This document shows, piece after piece, positions 17,167 through 30,568 of a DNA stretch of 32,967 nucleotides. Location of the stretch: the IMG/VR virus record IMGVR_UViG_3300009104_000682, positions 1-32,967 of that record; one strand, 5' to 3'. The notes below the pieces were generated by a model. That model was not told the DNA's origin, did not search any database, and saw only the letters and a list, made by a program, of their open reading frames with translations. The stretch is from a virus. Numbering within the stretch: position 1 is the first letter of the stretch; each line of letters opens with the position of its first letter. Made by a program: the position numbers and the translations under genes.

Positions 17167-17688
17167 TTATTGATTTTCAACAAGTTTTGACCTCTTCACC
17201 ATCTTGGATCTACGTTTTAGAGCCCGATTTAACTTAATTTTGGACACTTTTTGGGTGAAATTCGTTCCTTCCATATGATCATACTCATGCAGAAAGATTC
17301 GACACTCCAGACCAAACATCGCTTGGTTTTGTATCTCACCAGACTTGTCCTCATATTGTACCTCAATACCATCTGGACGTTTTACCTTCAACCATAAGCC
17401 AGGATAGGTAAGGCAACCCTCGTCCATAAGAATTTCTGTATCGGACTTGGTTACTATCTCTGGATTAAAACAGGTAATTGTTTCTCGTTTCTTTACATCA
17501 GAGTACATCACAAATACTCGCTCCATGATACCAATCTGGTTTGCAGATAAACCAATACCGTTATAATTTTTCATAGAGTCCAATAATTTTTCTTCTACAT
17601 CATCCCTATCTAAATCAGGACTGCACCCCGACAATCGAACTTTCATAATAGGGTTTTCAGCTTCAATTAGTTTGCATATTTTACTCAT
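17167..17688 (-). CDS. def: peptide deformylase
   Basis: This enzyme removes the N-terminal formyl group from new proteins. All three family motifs are present in 173 residues: GIGLSANQ (44-51), EGCLT (90-94, the Cys being a metal ligand; usually EGCLS) and HEYDH (134-138, two His ligands and the catalytic Glu). The C-terminal tail is basic. Marine myophages often carry deformylases, which may speed maturation of phage or host proteins during infection. The ATG overlaps the stop of the small upstream gene (ATGA). Confidence 0.95.
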   Translation of the reverse strand: MSKICKLIEAENPIMKVRLSGCSPDLDRDDVEEKLLDSMKNYNGIGLSANQIGIMERVFVMYSDVKKRETITCFNPEIVTKSDTEILMDEGCLTYPGLWLKVKRPDGIEVQYEDKSGEIQNQAMFGLECRIFLHEYDHMEGTNFTQKVSKIKLNRALKRRSKMVKRSKLVENQ

Positions 17689-17876: not shown

Positions 17877-18669
17877 ACAAAATCTCACTTATTATTTCTT
17901 GTGCTTCCTCATTAGGATGCACATCCTCTGGACTTATTCTTAGTGCGGTTCTATCAGGGTCAATCAAGTCCAGATGATTATCAATATTTGTTCCTGATAT
18001 TTGTGGCATGATTGGCCAACCTAAAAATGTTTTCTTGTTTATTTTGTCAAAGTAACAGCTGTCCAAAATATAATGACACAATTCTTTCTGACCACGATTA
18101 CCTGTCTTACTCATGATCGGAATACAACCTTGCACCTGTAAGTGTGGTATGTCCAGACTTTCACATATAGTTTGAAAAGAATACATCATTCGGATTGAAT
18201 CATATGTTCCACCCTTCATGCCACCCAAACCATGTTCTCTAATCACCTTACTAACTTTATAAACGTAATCTTTTTTTGCTGGATTTTTTTCTGCGTCATC
18301 ATAAAACTGGTCATGCCATTCACCTTCCAAATAATCTCTTTCGGGATGAAAACACGACCACAACATTTTTTCGTCTATACCTTTTGGAAGATTACCTTCA
18401 CCCATATAAAATGATACACGTTGAAACTCTGACCACATTGAAATAGCCAAACCAACATTTTTTTGACTAACCACTTGGTCAATTAGTGTACTGTATATTG
18501 CTTTATTACCAAACGCAACTTTGCCTACATTGATACATTCCATATCAAGTTTTTCTGCAAGCAACTCTGGCCAAAGTGGAAACGGTTTTAAGTTTTGTGT
18601 CGTTGCATAATCATCCGTATAGCTGCAACCAGAAACTATCAGTTTCTTTTTTCTAGAAAACAGGGACAT
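17848..18669 (-). CDS. SGNH/GDSL-like hydrolase
   Basis: Starting at the ATG at 18669 (GAGAGG 7 nt upstream) the product has 273 residues. Block I is 'IVSGCSYTDD' with the presumed nucleophile Ser16, 'GKVAFGNKAIYS' supplies Gly and Asn of blocks II/III, and 'EDVHPNEEAQ' near the C-terminus supplies the Asp-x-x-His-like pair. SGNH enzymes hydrolyse or transfer acyl esters on carbohydrates or lipids. The gene overlaps the carbamoyltransferase by 17 nt, so the two may act on the same molecule, for example a sugar or modified base. The substrate is unknown. Confidence 0.72.
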   Translation of the reverse strand: MSLFSRKKKLIVSGCSYTDDYATTQNLKPFPLWPELLAEKLDMECINVGKVAFGNKAIYSTLIDQVVSQKNVGLAISMWSEFQRVSFYMGEGNLPKGIDEKMLWSCFHPERDYLEGEWHDQFYDDAEKNPAKKDYVYKVSKVIREHGLGGMKGGTYDSIRMMYSFQTICESLDIPHLQVQGCIPIMSKTGNRGQKELCHYILDSCYFDKINKKTFLGWPIMPQISGTNIDNHLDLIDPDRTALRISPEDVHPNEEAQEIISEILYDQYNKVYS

Positions 18670-19978
18670 TATATTTCCTCTCAAATTCTTTCGCATCTTC
18701 CCAAGTGTTAACGATTGGTTGTCCTTTTATATTTAGGGAAGTGTTCAATAACATCGGACATCCAGTTTGCTCATACCATTCTTCTAGGATTGGTCTGAGA
18801 ATTGATACGTTGTCTTTCTCTACCAGTTGCACTCTCGCAGTTCCATCAACGTGAGTCACCGACTTGTGATCGTGTTTTGCATTTGCGACAAACTGCATAT
18901 ATCGATTCATCGGGCCATCAAAGTAATCGTCTGCGTATTCTTCTAGGATTGCTGGTGCGAATGGTCTGAACATCTCACGTTGTTTTATTTTGTTTACTGT
19001 GTCTTTGATGTCGTATCTTGGATCACCCAACAGAGAACGATTACCAAGTGCTCTTGGCCCAAACTCTGCTCGTCCGTTTGCAACTCCACACAGTTGATTC
19101 TTTAGTAACTCTTTCACTACGTCTTTCGGATTTACATCTCTGGATATATTATATCCCAGATAGGGGTGCTTCCATTTTACCTTTTTCTTATACACCAGTG
19201 CAGCTGCACCTAACGAACTTCCAGAATCGCCAGGCGATGGCATAATCCAAATGTTCTTGTCCTTCACCTTACTGTTTGCAACACAGTTCAACGCACACCC
19301 ACCCATGATAATCAAATTTTTCTTGGGACACATATCAACCAGTTCCAGAAACTTCTTTTCATAAAGTGCCTGCACCGATGCAGCCAAATCTACTTTCTTT
19401 ACCATAGGTAAGATGTTTCCAACTCCCATGTGATTGTTCTGGTGCAACAAGTGTTCCAAGTCGTGAAGTGGTTCTCCAAATGCAGCCATACCCATTGTAA
19501 TGTATTCATGCTCGTTTGGTTTTAGTCCTAGTCGTTGCGTAATCGCAGAATACAAAAGTCCAAGTGAGTAAGGATACTTCCATGACTTTATCTTTTTCAT
19601 GTTGTCCCATATCGTTATCGTATCCCATTCACCGATTGCATCTATCACCAGAATATTGCAATCATCAAATGGTGCAGTATAGTAACCAGCAGCTGCATGA
19701 GACTGATGGTGTCCAAAGGAAACATCATACTTGGTGCGTACCTTTTCCCAACCCTGACCAGCATACAATCGTCTTAGGTTTTTCCAGAATGGTTTCTCAT
19801 AATATGCAACCGTATCATTTTCATCTTGCACATTCTCTAATATTTGGTCAACGTGAATAAACGGATCGTTCTTGACTCTACTGTATCTCTCACTGTGAGA
19901 TGCATGAGTAATTTCATCACCGTCCAAAACACAGTAACCAGCATCATGATACCCTTCCGATATTCCAACAACTCTCAC
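18653..19978 (-). CDS. NodU/TobZ-type O-carbamoyltransferase
   Basis: The 441-residue protein has the N-terminal YrdC-independent Kae1-like fold hallmarks 'GISEGYHDAGYCVLDG' and the metal-binding HHQSH (90-94), then 'GGCALNC' near 226. The C-terminal carbamoyl-phosphate domain has 'EFGPRALGNRSLLGDPR' and 'NTSLNIKGQPIV'. Family members transfer a carbamoyl group from carbamoyl phosphate, via carbamoyl-AMP, to a hydroxyl. Phage relatives that carbamoylate 5-hydroxymethylcytosine in DNA have been reported (from memory). Here it directly follows a DNA methyltransferase and precedes an SGNH hydrolase. A GTG start overlaps the methyltransferase stop (GTGA) with GGAG upstream. No hydroxymethylase is visible in the window, so the acceptor is open. 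Confidence 0.85.
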   Translation of the reverse strand: MRVVGISEGYHDAGYCVLDGDEITHASHSERYSRVKNDPFIHVDQILENVQDENDTVAYYEKPFWKNLRRLYAGQGWEKVRTKYDVSFGHHQSHAAAGYYTAPFDDCNILVIDAIGEWDTITIWDNMKKIKSWKYPYSLGLLYSAITQRLGLKPNEHEYITMGMAAFGEPLHDLEHLLHQNNHMGVGNILPMVKKVDLAASVQALYEKKFLELVDMCPKKNLIIMGGCALNCVANSKVKDKNIWIMPSPGDSGSSLGAAALVYKKKVKWKHPYLGYNISRDVNPKDVVKELLKNQLCGVANGRAEFGPRALGNRSLLGDPRYDIKDTVNKIKQREMFRPFAPAILEEYADDYFDGPMNRYMQFVANAKHDHKSVTHVDGTARVQLVEKDNVSILRPILEEWYEQTGCPMLLNTSLNIKGQPIVNTWEDAKEFERKYNVPVF

Positions 19979-28774: not shown

Positions 28775-28873
28775 CTAATAATATTTATCCCAAACAGTAT
28801 ACTCCAGATAATATTTTTTACCATCTAGAATTATATACGGATTTGGGGGATAATCACTGTTACAATTAGCCAT
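28775..28873 (-). CDS. 32-aa Tyr-rich small ORF between pqqA-like gene and gp3-position gene
   Basis: The ATG at 28873 has AAGGAG about 8 nt upstream and the frame ends with TAG. The peptide contains 'NSDYPPNPYIILDGKKYYLE' followed by a Trp and two final Tyr; about a fifth of the residues are Tyr. It has its own late promoter, a 124-nt leader and a terminator, so it forms a separate unit. No family is recognised. Its small size and neighbourhood allow a modified-peptide or virion-accessory role, but nothing proves either. Confidence 0.6.
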   Translation of the reverse strand: MANCNSDYPPNPYIILDGKKYYLEYTVWDKYY

Positions 28874-28997
28874 GATACCATCTCCTTTTTACTTGAGATG
28901 CGTTCCTTCAGCGTACTACACTTACTTCCGTTCACAATTAAGTGAATGAACGATGTTGTAGTCTTTTGACCCATGACTTATGGAGCATCGAATGATG
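28874..28997 (-). other. long leader of the 32-aa ORF, possibly structured
   Basis: About 124 nt separate the predicted late start (28997) from the ATG. On the minus strand it begins with a perfect GCATC-ATTC-GATGC hairpin (28986-28999 region) and contains GTTCA...TGAAC arms further on. Other late leaders here are about 25 nt, so this one may be regulatory or a small RNA. Confidence 0.4.
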
Positions 28998-29002
28998 CGT
29001 AT

Positions 29003-29010
29003 TATTTATA
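29003..29010 (-). promoter_or_regulatory. late promoter TATAAATA for the 32-aa ORF
   Basis: Exact TATAAATA placed directly after the U tract of the pqqA-like terminator. Start expected near 28997. Confidence 0.65.
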
Positions 29011-29036
29011 TAAAAAAAGGGGTCTTGCGACCCCTT
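29010..29036 (-). terminator. terminator after the pqqA-like gene
   Basis: AAGGGGTC and GACCCCTT form an 8-bp stem around GCAA (a stable GNRA-type tetraloop context), followed by seven U. Confidence 0.88.
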
Positions 29037-29042
29037 GTGAAT

Positions 29043-29117
29043 TTATCGGTTCATAATGTACATAGTAACTTCAAATCCGAAACGAATGTCTTTATAACTA
29101 GGTTTTTCCCAAGACAT
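29043..29117 (-). CDS. pqqA: PqqA-like peptide (pyrroloquinoline quinone precursor homologue)
   Basis: The 24-residue product reads in order W3, K5-P6, Y8, D10, R12 and then GFEVTMY (14-20) ending NR. Bacterial PqqA peptides (23-24 residues) have the same layout, W.KP.Y.DLR.GFEVTMY...NR. In them the Glu and Tyr of E-V-T-x-Y are cross-linked by the radical SAM enzyme PqqE with PqqD and then cut out to make PQQ. Here these are Glu16 and Tyr20. The ATG at 29117 has AAGGAG at 7 nt. The gene lies between the gp23 terminator (29135-29165) and its own terminator, with no promoter of its own in the 18-nt gap, so expression would come from gp23 read-through. No pqqB-E is in this window. Homology is strong for so short a peptide; function in phage is inferred. 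Confidence 0.85.
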
Positions 29118-29134
29118 AGTACTTCTCCTTTTAG

Positions 29135-29165
29135 AAAAAAAAGGGGAACAAAATGTTCCCCTTTT
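29135..29165 (-). terminator. terminator/attenuator between gp23 and the pqqA-like gene
   Basis: AAAAGGGGAACA and TGTTCCCCTTTT form a perfect 12-bp stem around UUU, followed by more U. It lies before the pqqA-like Shine-Dalgarno, so it would set the capsid-to-peptide expression ratio. Confidence 0.88.
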
Positions 29166-29198: not shown

Positions 29199-30530
29199 TT
29201 ACATAAGGTTTGTAACTTTAACCTTCCTGTAGTACTTGTTAGTTGCACTCGAAATCGAGATTGCACCTTCAGCGGTTGCAGCAACTGTACCAGTATGGAA
29301 AGGATTAGCAGCAATACCATATCGGGTCTTGAAGCCAATCTTCGGTTGGAAAGTATGTTCTCCAACTGCACGAACCATTTGTAACGGAACGTATGGGCAG
29401 TAGAACATTCCAGCGTCATACGGTGAAGTACCTTTGTATCCCACAACGTAGTACTGAGAAGCAGCTACGTTTGCAGCGTAGGGGTCAACGTACACTCGAT
29501 AACGTCCATTAAGAACACCAGCGAATGTTGTAGTTGTGTCATCTACGTTTATACCTGTGGAAAGAGCAGGAGTGTAATCCAATTGTCCAGACATTTGCAA
29601 TGCAGAAGCAACGTCAGCAGAACAAAGAACCATATTACCCTTTCCTCTACGAGTTTGTTGACCAACTGCGTTTGCATCTCTCTCTAATTGAAAGAGAAGT
29701 CCTTTAAATTTTTCAACAGACCATCGACCGTTAGAGTCTGTATCTAAGTCGAAGATACCAGCAGTCGTTGTATTGACTTGAGCACCTTGAACCGCAGATA
29801 CATAAATGTTACGGACAACTTCTCGGTTGATTTCTGCAAGTATTTCAGCAGACAGAATATTTGCAAGTTCTGTTTCTGCGTCAAGACCATGAATTGCTTT
29901 AAGGTCTTGTGCAAGTTCCATTGAATACTCGGCTTTGAGGGCACGTGTTACCGCAGTAACCGTATGCTTCTCGATACTGAACGCCATTTCTCCGAATACG
30001 TTAGTACTAGAGTTATCACCTAATGCTTCACCCTGAGCAGCAGTCATACCTGTTGCACTGGTGTATGTTCCAGCAGAAGGACTATCGTTAAGAACAGCAG
30101 GGTTAGTTTCTGTAGAACCAATATCCCCACCACCGATAGTTCCAGCAGCGTTCTGGTTAGATATATCAGGAAATGCTTCGTCTGCGAGCGCTTCTGCACC
30201 AGTTTGAGAACTGAAACGTGAACGCATTGCGAAGATAAGTCCTGTTGGGCCAGTCATTGGCTGAACACCGCATATATCATATGCGATTAGGTTCGGCATT
30301 GAACGTCTGACCAGTGATATTAGAATTGGATCCCAATTATCAACTGAACTTCCTGTTGAGTTAGTTGGTGCGGCTTCTGAAAGAAACGCACGATCTTCTC
30401 TGAGAGCCTTTTCTTGGTTCTCTAAGATTACTGTAGTGACTGCCCGCTTGTAACTATCCGCAATCTCTGGGAGATCGGGATGTTGAAGGACTGGCTGCCA
30501 CTTTTCTTGTAGATGTTCTGTTTGAAACAT
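29199..30530 (-). CDS. 23: major capsid protein gp23
   Basis: The hexameric shell protein has 443 residues (T4: 521). Diagnostic stretches are 'SSVDNWDPILISLVRRSMPN', 'LIAYDICGVQPMTGPTGLIF', 'ELAQDLKAIHGLDAETELAN' and 'YVDPYAANVAASQYYVVGYK'. The N-terminal about 60 residues are helical and would be cut off by the gp21 protease in the prohead. It has a late promoter (30561-30568), AAGGAG before the ATG, and a strong terminator after it. It is expected to be the most abundant late product, which matters for the small gene behind it. Confidence 0.98.
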   Translation of the reverse strand: MFQTEHLQEKWQPVLQHPDLPEIADSYKRAVTTVILENQEKALREDRAFLSEAAPTNSTGSSVDNWDPILISLVRRSMPNLIAYDICGVQPMTGPTGLIFAMRSRFSSQTGAEALADEAFPDISNQNAAGTIGGGDIGSTETNPAVLNDSPSAGTYTSATGMTAAQGEALGDNSSTNVFGEMAFSIEKHTVTAVTRALKAEYSMELAQDLKAIHGLDAETELANILSAEILAEINREVVRNIYVSAVQGAQVNTTTAGIFDLDTDSNGRWSVEKFKGLLFQLERDANAVGQQTRRGKGNMVLCSADVASALQMSGQLDYTPALSTGINVDDTTTTFAGVLNGRYRVYVDPYAANVAASQYYVVGYKGTSPYDAGMFYCPYVPLQMVRAVGEHTFQPKIGFKTRYGIAANPFHTGTVAATAEGAISISSATNKYYRKVKVTNLM

Positions 30531-30560: not shown

Positions 30561-30568
30561 TATTTATA
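30561..30568 (-). promoter_or_regulatory. late promoter TATAAATA of gp23
   Basis: Exact TATAAATA in the gp22-gp23 gap; the predicted start is near 30555, 25 nt before the ATG. Confidence 0.85.

Follow-up and report, generated by a model that had tools for sequence, protein, structure and literature searches.

A stand-alone pqqA gene behind the major capsid gene of a T4-like phage may supply substrate for PQQ synthesis in methylotrophic hosts

The stretch of DNA analysed here (the window) is a complete IMG/VR virus record of 32,967 bases with a GC content of 37%, and its gene content identifies it as a fragment of a T4-like phage. Its proteins include the major capsid protein gp23, scaffold, prohead protease, UvsY, UvsX/RecA and a family B DNA polymerase, together with Hsp20, peptide deformylase, carbamoyltransferase and DNA methylase. 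Because gp23, scaffold, protease, UvsY, UvsX and DNA polymerase stand on one record with it, the small gene studied here lies in a genuine phage genome, and the T4-like affiliation proposed in the first-pass annotation holds. The DNA polymerase is closest to that of Methylophilales phage Melnitz (64%; the next match is at 55%), and gp23 is closest to those of Melnitz and pelagiphage Mosig (74%). Peptide deformylase is encoded at 17167-17688 (-) and carbamoyltransferase at 18653-19978 (-). The features around the small gene are collected in Table 1.

Table 1. Features at the pqqA locus of the window, and the methanol-oxidation gene set of a second pqqA contig.
Feature	Position	Strand	Remarks
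pqqA ORF	29043..29117	minus	24 aa, ATG (29117) to TAA; matches PF08042 and TIGR02107
Shine-Dalgarno AGGAG of pqqA	29125..29129	minus	7 nt 5' of ATG; direct reading of the sequence
Terminator-like hairpin between gp23 and pqqA, AAAAGGGGAACA-TTT-TGTTCCCCTTTT plus T run	29139..29165	minus	kept in 6/6 close relatives
gp23, major capsid protein	29199..30530	minus	upstream neighbour of pqqA; PF07068, 476.6 bits; phrog_138
T4-type late promoter element TATAAATA before gp23	30561..30568	minus	putative role
Second terminator-like hairpin	29017..29036	minus	directly 3' of pqqA; counterpart of the single gp23 terminator of L002
TATAAATA behind pqqA	29003..29010	minus	opens the following late unit (riboswitch and small ORF); also present in L002 and L388
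Glutamine riboswitch behind pqqA	28897-28954	minus	RF01739, 58.5 bits (Rfam scan)
32-aa ORF MANCNSDYPPNPYIILDGKKYYLEYTVWDKYY after the riboswitch	28775-28873	minus	ends before tail-tube gene
Methanol-oxidation set with pqqA	L492 2990-11790		contig IMGVR_UViG_3300025120_009955; adjoins curli-like genes

The 24-codon ORF behind gp23 scores 44.4 bits against the Pfam profile PF08042 (E=1.5e-11; cut-off 21.1) and 45 bits against the NCBIfam equivalog TIGR02107 (E=6.2e-12; cut-off 20), the full profile (1-21/21) being covered, and it is the single PF08042 match in a six-frame search of the whole record. Its length falls within the typical PqqA size (about 23-30 aa), AGGAG provides a ribosome-binding site, and both cross-link residues of the E-x3-Y core, Glu16 and Tyr20, are present. 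The first-pass annotation had recognized a PqqA-like peptide that has a strong Shine-Dalgarno sequence and keeps the Glu and Tyr that become pyrroloquinoline quinone (PQQ), and each of these readings is upheld. By both profiles, the ORF is a genuine member of the PqqA family. No model in PHROGs matched the peptide, and no Pqq enzyme was found among the scanned proteins of the window, which is a genome fragment.

The 81 nt from the end of gp23 (29199) to the start of pqqA hold, in this order, a terminator-like hairpin, AGGAG and the ATG. Matches to the TATAAATA-type late promoter number six in the window against 2.44 expected, and terminator-like sites number nine in a 2.1-kb region against 1.4 expected, several of them overlapping. 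The pqqA stretch folds better than its shuffles (z -3.0), chiefly owing to the two hairpins. The TATAAATA element before gp23 is likely to be the promoter for gp23 and, by read-through, for pqqA. A search of the minus strand for a sigma-70-like promoter between gp23 and pqqA found none, so read-through transcription from gp23 is what we infer for this copy. Conserved non-coding sequence behind pqqA prompted the Rfam scan, which identified a glutamine riboswitch, a feature separate from pqqA. This riboswitch is placed behind a late promoter element in the gap between gp23 and the tube gene, and it is common to the loci L388, L002 and L402.

Six IMG/VR loci whose gp23 is 95-100% identical to that of the window carry the same pqqA ORF 83-88 nt behind gp23, and they share the hairpin and the Shine-Dalgarno sequence as well. 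The peptide is identical to that of the window in L388, L414 and L424, and in L431, L413 and L425 the substitutions are confined to residue 7 (S to T, D or E) and residue 21 (I to V). Across the seven sequences, pN is 0.028 and pS is 0.146. A chance ORF is excluded, because six relatives keep pqqA in place and synonymous changes are in excess; a missing profile match, a disrupted ORF in close relatives or a lack of synonymous excess, which the first-pass annotation had named as signs against a real gene, were none of them seen. The comparison demonstrates a signature of purifying selection on pqqA. For all viral pqqA among the matches listed, the pooled pN/pS is 0.23, a value biased low because the search patterns anchor several residues, so the case for selection is built on the genus-level comparison and the positions left free.

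The locus L002, with a gp23 93% identical to that of the window, is without pqqA. Behind its gp23 lie a single terminator, then TATAAATA, then downstream sequence closely similar to that of the window; the terminator arms, GGGGTC...GACCCC, are those of the hairpin behind the window pqqA, and the window is ~135 nt longer in this gp23-downstream region. In L196 and L338 (gp23 89-90%), pqqA occupies the same place and the flanks differ, so the difference from L002 may be due to either gain or loss of pqqA. When 80 loci were retrieved by gp23, PqqA was found in 0 of the 79 records searched, L002 included. The possibility that adjacency to gp23 is private to the window was nevertheless rejected, as pattern scans gave at least 6 close and at least 23 more distant relatives with pqqA beside gp23.

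Searching IMG/VR with three degenerate DNA patterns yielded at least 278 loci, at least 276 of them with an extractable PqqA-like ORF, both counts being lower bounds. Among the matches listed, a Shine-Dalgarno-like sequence precedes 274 of 276 viral ORFs, and the remaining two have AAGGGGAA. Glu and Tyr are kept in 240/240 of the listed viral PqqA found by patterns that leave Glu-Val-Thr-Met-Tyr free, and the only core changes in these are V to I (4) and M to L (5). In the loci examined, viral pqqA was never seen accompanied by pqqB-E (pqqB, C, D or E in 0 of the 276 listed, by tblastn), and the same search found pqqB-E in 29 of 116 host pqqA loci. These results agree with the earlier suggestion that the phage carries only the peptide substrate.

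gp23 and pqqA occur together in at least 29 loci, with pqqA 83-456 nt behind gp23 (24 same-strand, five convergent), a closeness that partly reflects short loci; gp23 identity to the window across these 29 listed loci runs from 100% down to 31%. In the longer contigs G134 and G136 the two genes lie many kb apart, in Melnitz they are about 52 kb apart, and other T4-like places of pqqA are near hsp20/polymerase/gp62 and near uvsX. Synteny behind gp23, which the first-pass annotation had suggested examining, is thus only partly borne out: judging from these loci, the place is recurrent in several T4-like lineages and is not general. Given the varied distance from gp23 and the other T4-like places, pqqA has been gained by T4-like genomes, or relocated in them, on several occasions.

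Against 50,697 phage records, PqqA queries of three types gave the same 12 matches: Melnitz (four records), Venkman, MEP301, MEP401, MEP402, P19250A, the podovirus MW202481 and two contigs labelled 'Acinetobacter phage'. Nine of the 12 are Methylophilales/Methylophilaceae phages, and MW202481 is an environmental podovirus whose peptide is identical to a common Methylophilaceae sequence. Both contigs labelled Acinetobacter phage MD-2021a were set aside: CAKLQF020000010.1 (L088), the larger one, which has a full pqqABCDE operon, ppk and a nucleotidase, looks like a bacterial chromosome deposited as a phage, and CAKLQH020000055.1 is the second record under this label. By these matches, the named phages with pqqA are almost all phages of PQQ-dependent methylotrophs. 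Venkman, MEP301 and Melnitz were the only OM43 phages before MEP401 and MEP402 were added, according to PMC10580990; pqqA is present in each of the five and also in P19250A, an LD28 phage from fresh water. None of these Methylophilales phages has a PqqA annotation in the matching records. The annotations deposited for Venkman, MEP301, MEP401/402 and P19250A list no gene at pqqA, and in Melnitz (MZ577097.1) pqqA at 76100-76195 (L082 3461-3556) is unannotated, an antisense hypothetical ORF being listed instead at 76134-76205 (+). pqqA is also unmentioned in the auxiliary metabolic gene section of PMC10580990 and in the Melnitz paper.

On the host side, a pattern scan of cellular genome contigs gave mainly Methylophilaceae and Methylophaga, the pattern itself selecting RFGFEVTMY types. 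PqqA was present in 100/100 Methylophilaceae genomes at 1-12 copies, and 97 had two or more; an earlier study describes 3-12 pqqA copies alongside one set of the remaining pqq genes in this family (PMC4109929). The genome of Methylophilales bacterium LSUCC0135 (G107, the genome of L272) holds twelve copies in 2.1 Mb, the most seen, and two gammaproteobacterial MAGs have tandem arrays of three pqqA with identical peptides at ~260-290 nt spacing (L290 393-987 and L292 2291-2894). pqqB-E were absent within the fetched stretch in 87 of 116 host pqqA loci and present in only 29, so pqqA normally stands alone in these hosts as well. The closest cellular peptide found, which agrees with that of the window at 18 of the 21 positions compared, occurs in two MAGs labelled Methylococcus, and a search for a cellular twin, with a pattern opening W[DE] followed by 16 further letters, found none among 369 genomes sampled from the class of these MAGs. 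The host of the window phage would be a methylotroph, and because its peptide is nearest to that of the Methylococcus-labelled MAGs, OM43 and a methane- or methanol-oxidising gammaproteobacterium are equally possible.

A link to methanol oxidation was found in the 72-kb contig G129 (L137/L492), where pqqA lies within 9 kb of three methanol-oxidation-related genes, encoding a PQQ-dependent methanol/ethanol dehydrogenase (TIGR03075, 608 bits), formate dehydrogenase alpha (FdhA; TIGR01591, 885 bits) and a quinoprotein dehydrogenase-associated SoxYZ-like carrier (TIGR04557, 197 bits). The contig also has viral markers, namely phage-type exonuclease, ribonucleotide reductase, tail-fibre and endolysin genes. 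It was the only one of 50 tested pqqA contigs with methanol dehydrogenase, and no such enzyme was found among the scanned proteins of the window. The combination has a precedent in VP_266, a T4-like Methylophilaceae phage population of Lake Baikal for which PqqA and methanol dehydrogenase were reported in 2020 (PMC7678222).

We therefore favour, at a probability of about 75%, the reading that the phage pqqA is an auxiliary metabolic gene for substrate supply, whose product would feed host PqqD and PqqE and sustain PQQ-dependent methanol oxidation during infection. pqqA would be expressed late as part of the gp23 transcript, a leaky terminator allowing read-through; host PqqD would bind the 24-aa peptide, PqqE would link Glu16 to Tyr20, and a host protease, PqqB and PqqC would complete PQQ. 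The chemistry has support in work that describes cross-linking of Glu and Tyr of PqqA by PqqE and cites conversion of purified PqqA to PQQ by Gluconobacter extract (PMC9851590). One PqqA is spent for each PQQ made, whereas the enzymes turn over, and a substrate gene alone could thus raise or maintain PQQ output, and the multiplication of pqqA, not of the enzymes, in methylotrophs points to the same logic as in the phage. Extra PQQ could keep methanol dehydrogenase (XoxF/MxaF) charged and energy flowing through a long infection; the latent periods of OM43 phages MEP401/402 are given as 17-20 h in PMC10580990, and over such a time cofactor upkeep could pay. The invariance of Glu and Tyr, and the occurrence of methanol dehydrogenase next to pqqA in one phage, speak for a peptide that works as a precursor. 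Several observations count against substrate supply: the hairpin between gp23 and pqqA, with no own promoter found; late expression, an odd timing for cofactor synthesis; the small addition that one pqqA makes in many-copy hosts unless late transcription is very strong; and the rarity of methanol dehydrogenase in pqqA contigs (1/50), with none found among the scanned window proteins.

The first-pass annotation had offered a boost of host PQQ synthesis alongside two other roles; the boost is now the lead hypothesis, and nothing seen favours the other two. A phage with only the substrate could in principle titrate PqqD and PqqE, and a peptide variable at several non-core positions might compete for these proteins and divert or stop PQQ synthesis, for host takeover or superinfection exclusion. 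Such a decoy is improbable, as a blocking peptide could do without the reactive Glu and Tyr, which are nevertheless invariant in the 240 listed peptides; methanol dehydrogenase beside pqqA would be pointless with PQQ blocked, and phage peptides are close to host peptides, to the point of identity in MW202481. The position behind gp23 with predicted co-transcription, recurring in several T4-like lineages, could instead suit a peptide packaged with the capsid, or a non-PQQ signal or product made by host PqqE chemistry. We consider this slightly less probable still: pqqA lies elsewhere in other phages (near a gp5-like gene in Melnitz, near hsp20/polymerase or uvsX), in non-T4 phages it is near recombination genes, and it tracks PQQ-using hosts, not capsid type. 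Recent functionless host DNA that hitchhikes in the phage, which the patchy distribution (absence from 79 related-gp23 records, including L002) might suggest, is the least probable of the three, being contradicted by purifying selection in pN/pS, invariant reactive residues, a conserved Shine-Dalgarno sequence, persistence over several phage families and all cultured Methylophilales phages found, and the lack of visible flanking host DNA.

The evidence also tilts towards a broader statement, namely that stand-alone pqqA is near-universal and repeatedly acquired in phages of PQQ-dependent methylotrophs, across T4-like phages, Zobellviridae and other tailed phages, and has been missed at 23-24 codons, below the length cut-off of gene callers. 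If substrate supply is the role, the consumed PqqA peptide, and not the enzymes, would be the PQQ-supply step worth phage DNA, and the presence of pqqA on a viral contig could cheaply mark its host as a methylotroph. Methylotrophs form a step between methanol, in the sea and in fresh water, and CO2; should pqqA be routine in their phages, infection would act directly on one-carbon flux. Cultured phage-host pairs exist, which makes the question of whether PqqA supply limits PQQ tractable.

The first-pass annotation knew of no established role for PqqA in a phage; PqqA in phages of methylotrophs was in fact already known in 2020, and the gene proves widespread. Like the window, VP_266 combines PqqA with a T4-like phage and has peptide deformylase; it was assigned to Methylophilaceae, and its PqqA was proposed to support methanol dehydrogenase, in the portions of the report available (PMC7678222). 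VP_266 is a freshwater contig with methanol dehydrogenase, whereas the 33 kb of the window show none, and those portions do not describe the place behind gp23, the breadth over phage families or selection. Virus-encoded pqqA is also listed in a 2026 reservoir study (PMC13188868). Within the open-licence literature, what appears to be new is how widely the gene occurs, that every cultured Methylophilales phage found has it, that its place behind gp23 recurs, and the evidence for selection. The stand-alone pqqA of Methylophilaceae and Methylophaga resembles that of the window in its 23-24 aa and E-x3-Y core, and host copies, like those of phages, lie mostly away from pqqB-E, with many per genome (PMC4109929). 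The window copy differs from them in its phage location and predicted late-phage transcription, and its N-terminal part differs from the common host forms MWTKPAATEM and MWTKPEYSDM. Melnitz, Venkman, MEP301, MEP401/402 and P19250A share with the window a stand-alone PqqA with a Shine-Dalgarno sequence and no pqqB-E listed nearby, but their genes occupy other genomic places, mostly in other phage families, and their peptides are 59-68% identical. Cyanophage psbA is a host-derived auxiliary gene that sustains host energy metabolism in infection. pqqA resembles it as a host-derived energy gene and differs in its product, which is not an enzyme or subunit but a 24-aa RiPP-type cofactor substrate that is consumed.
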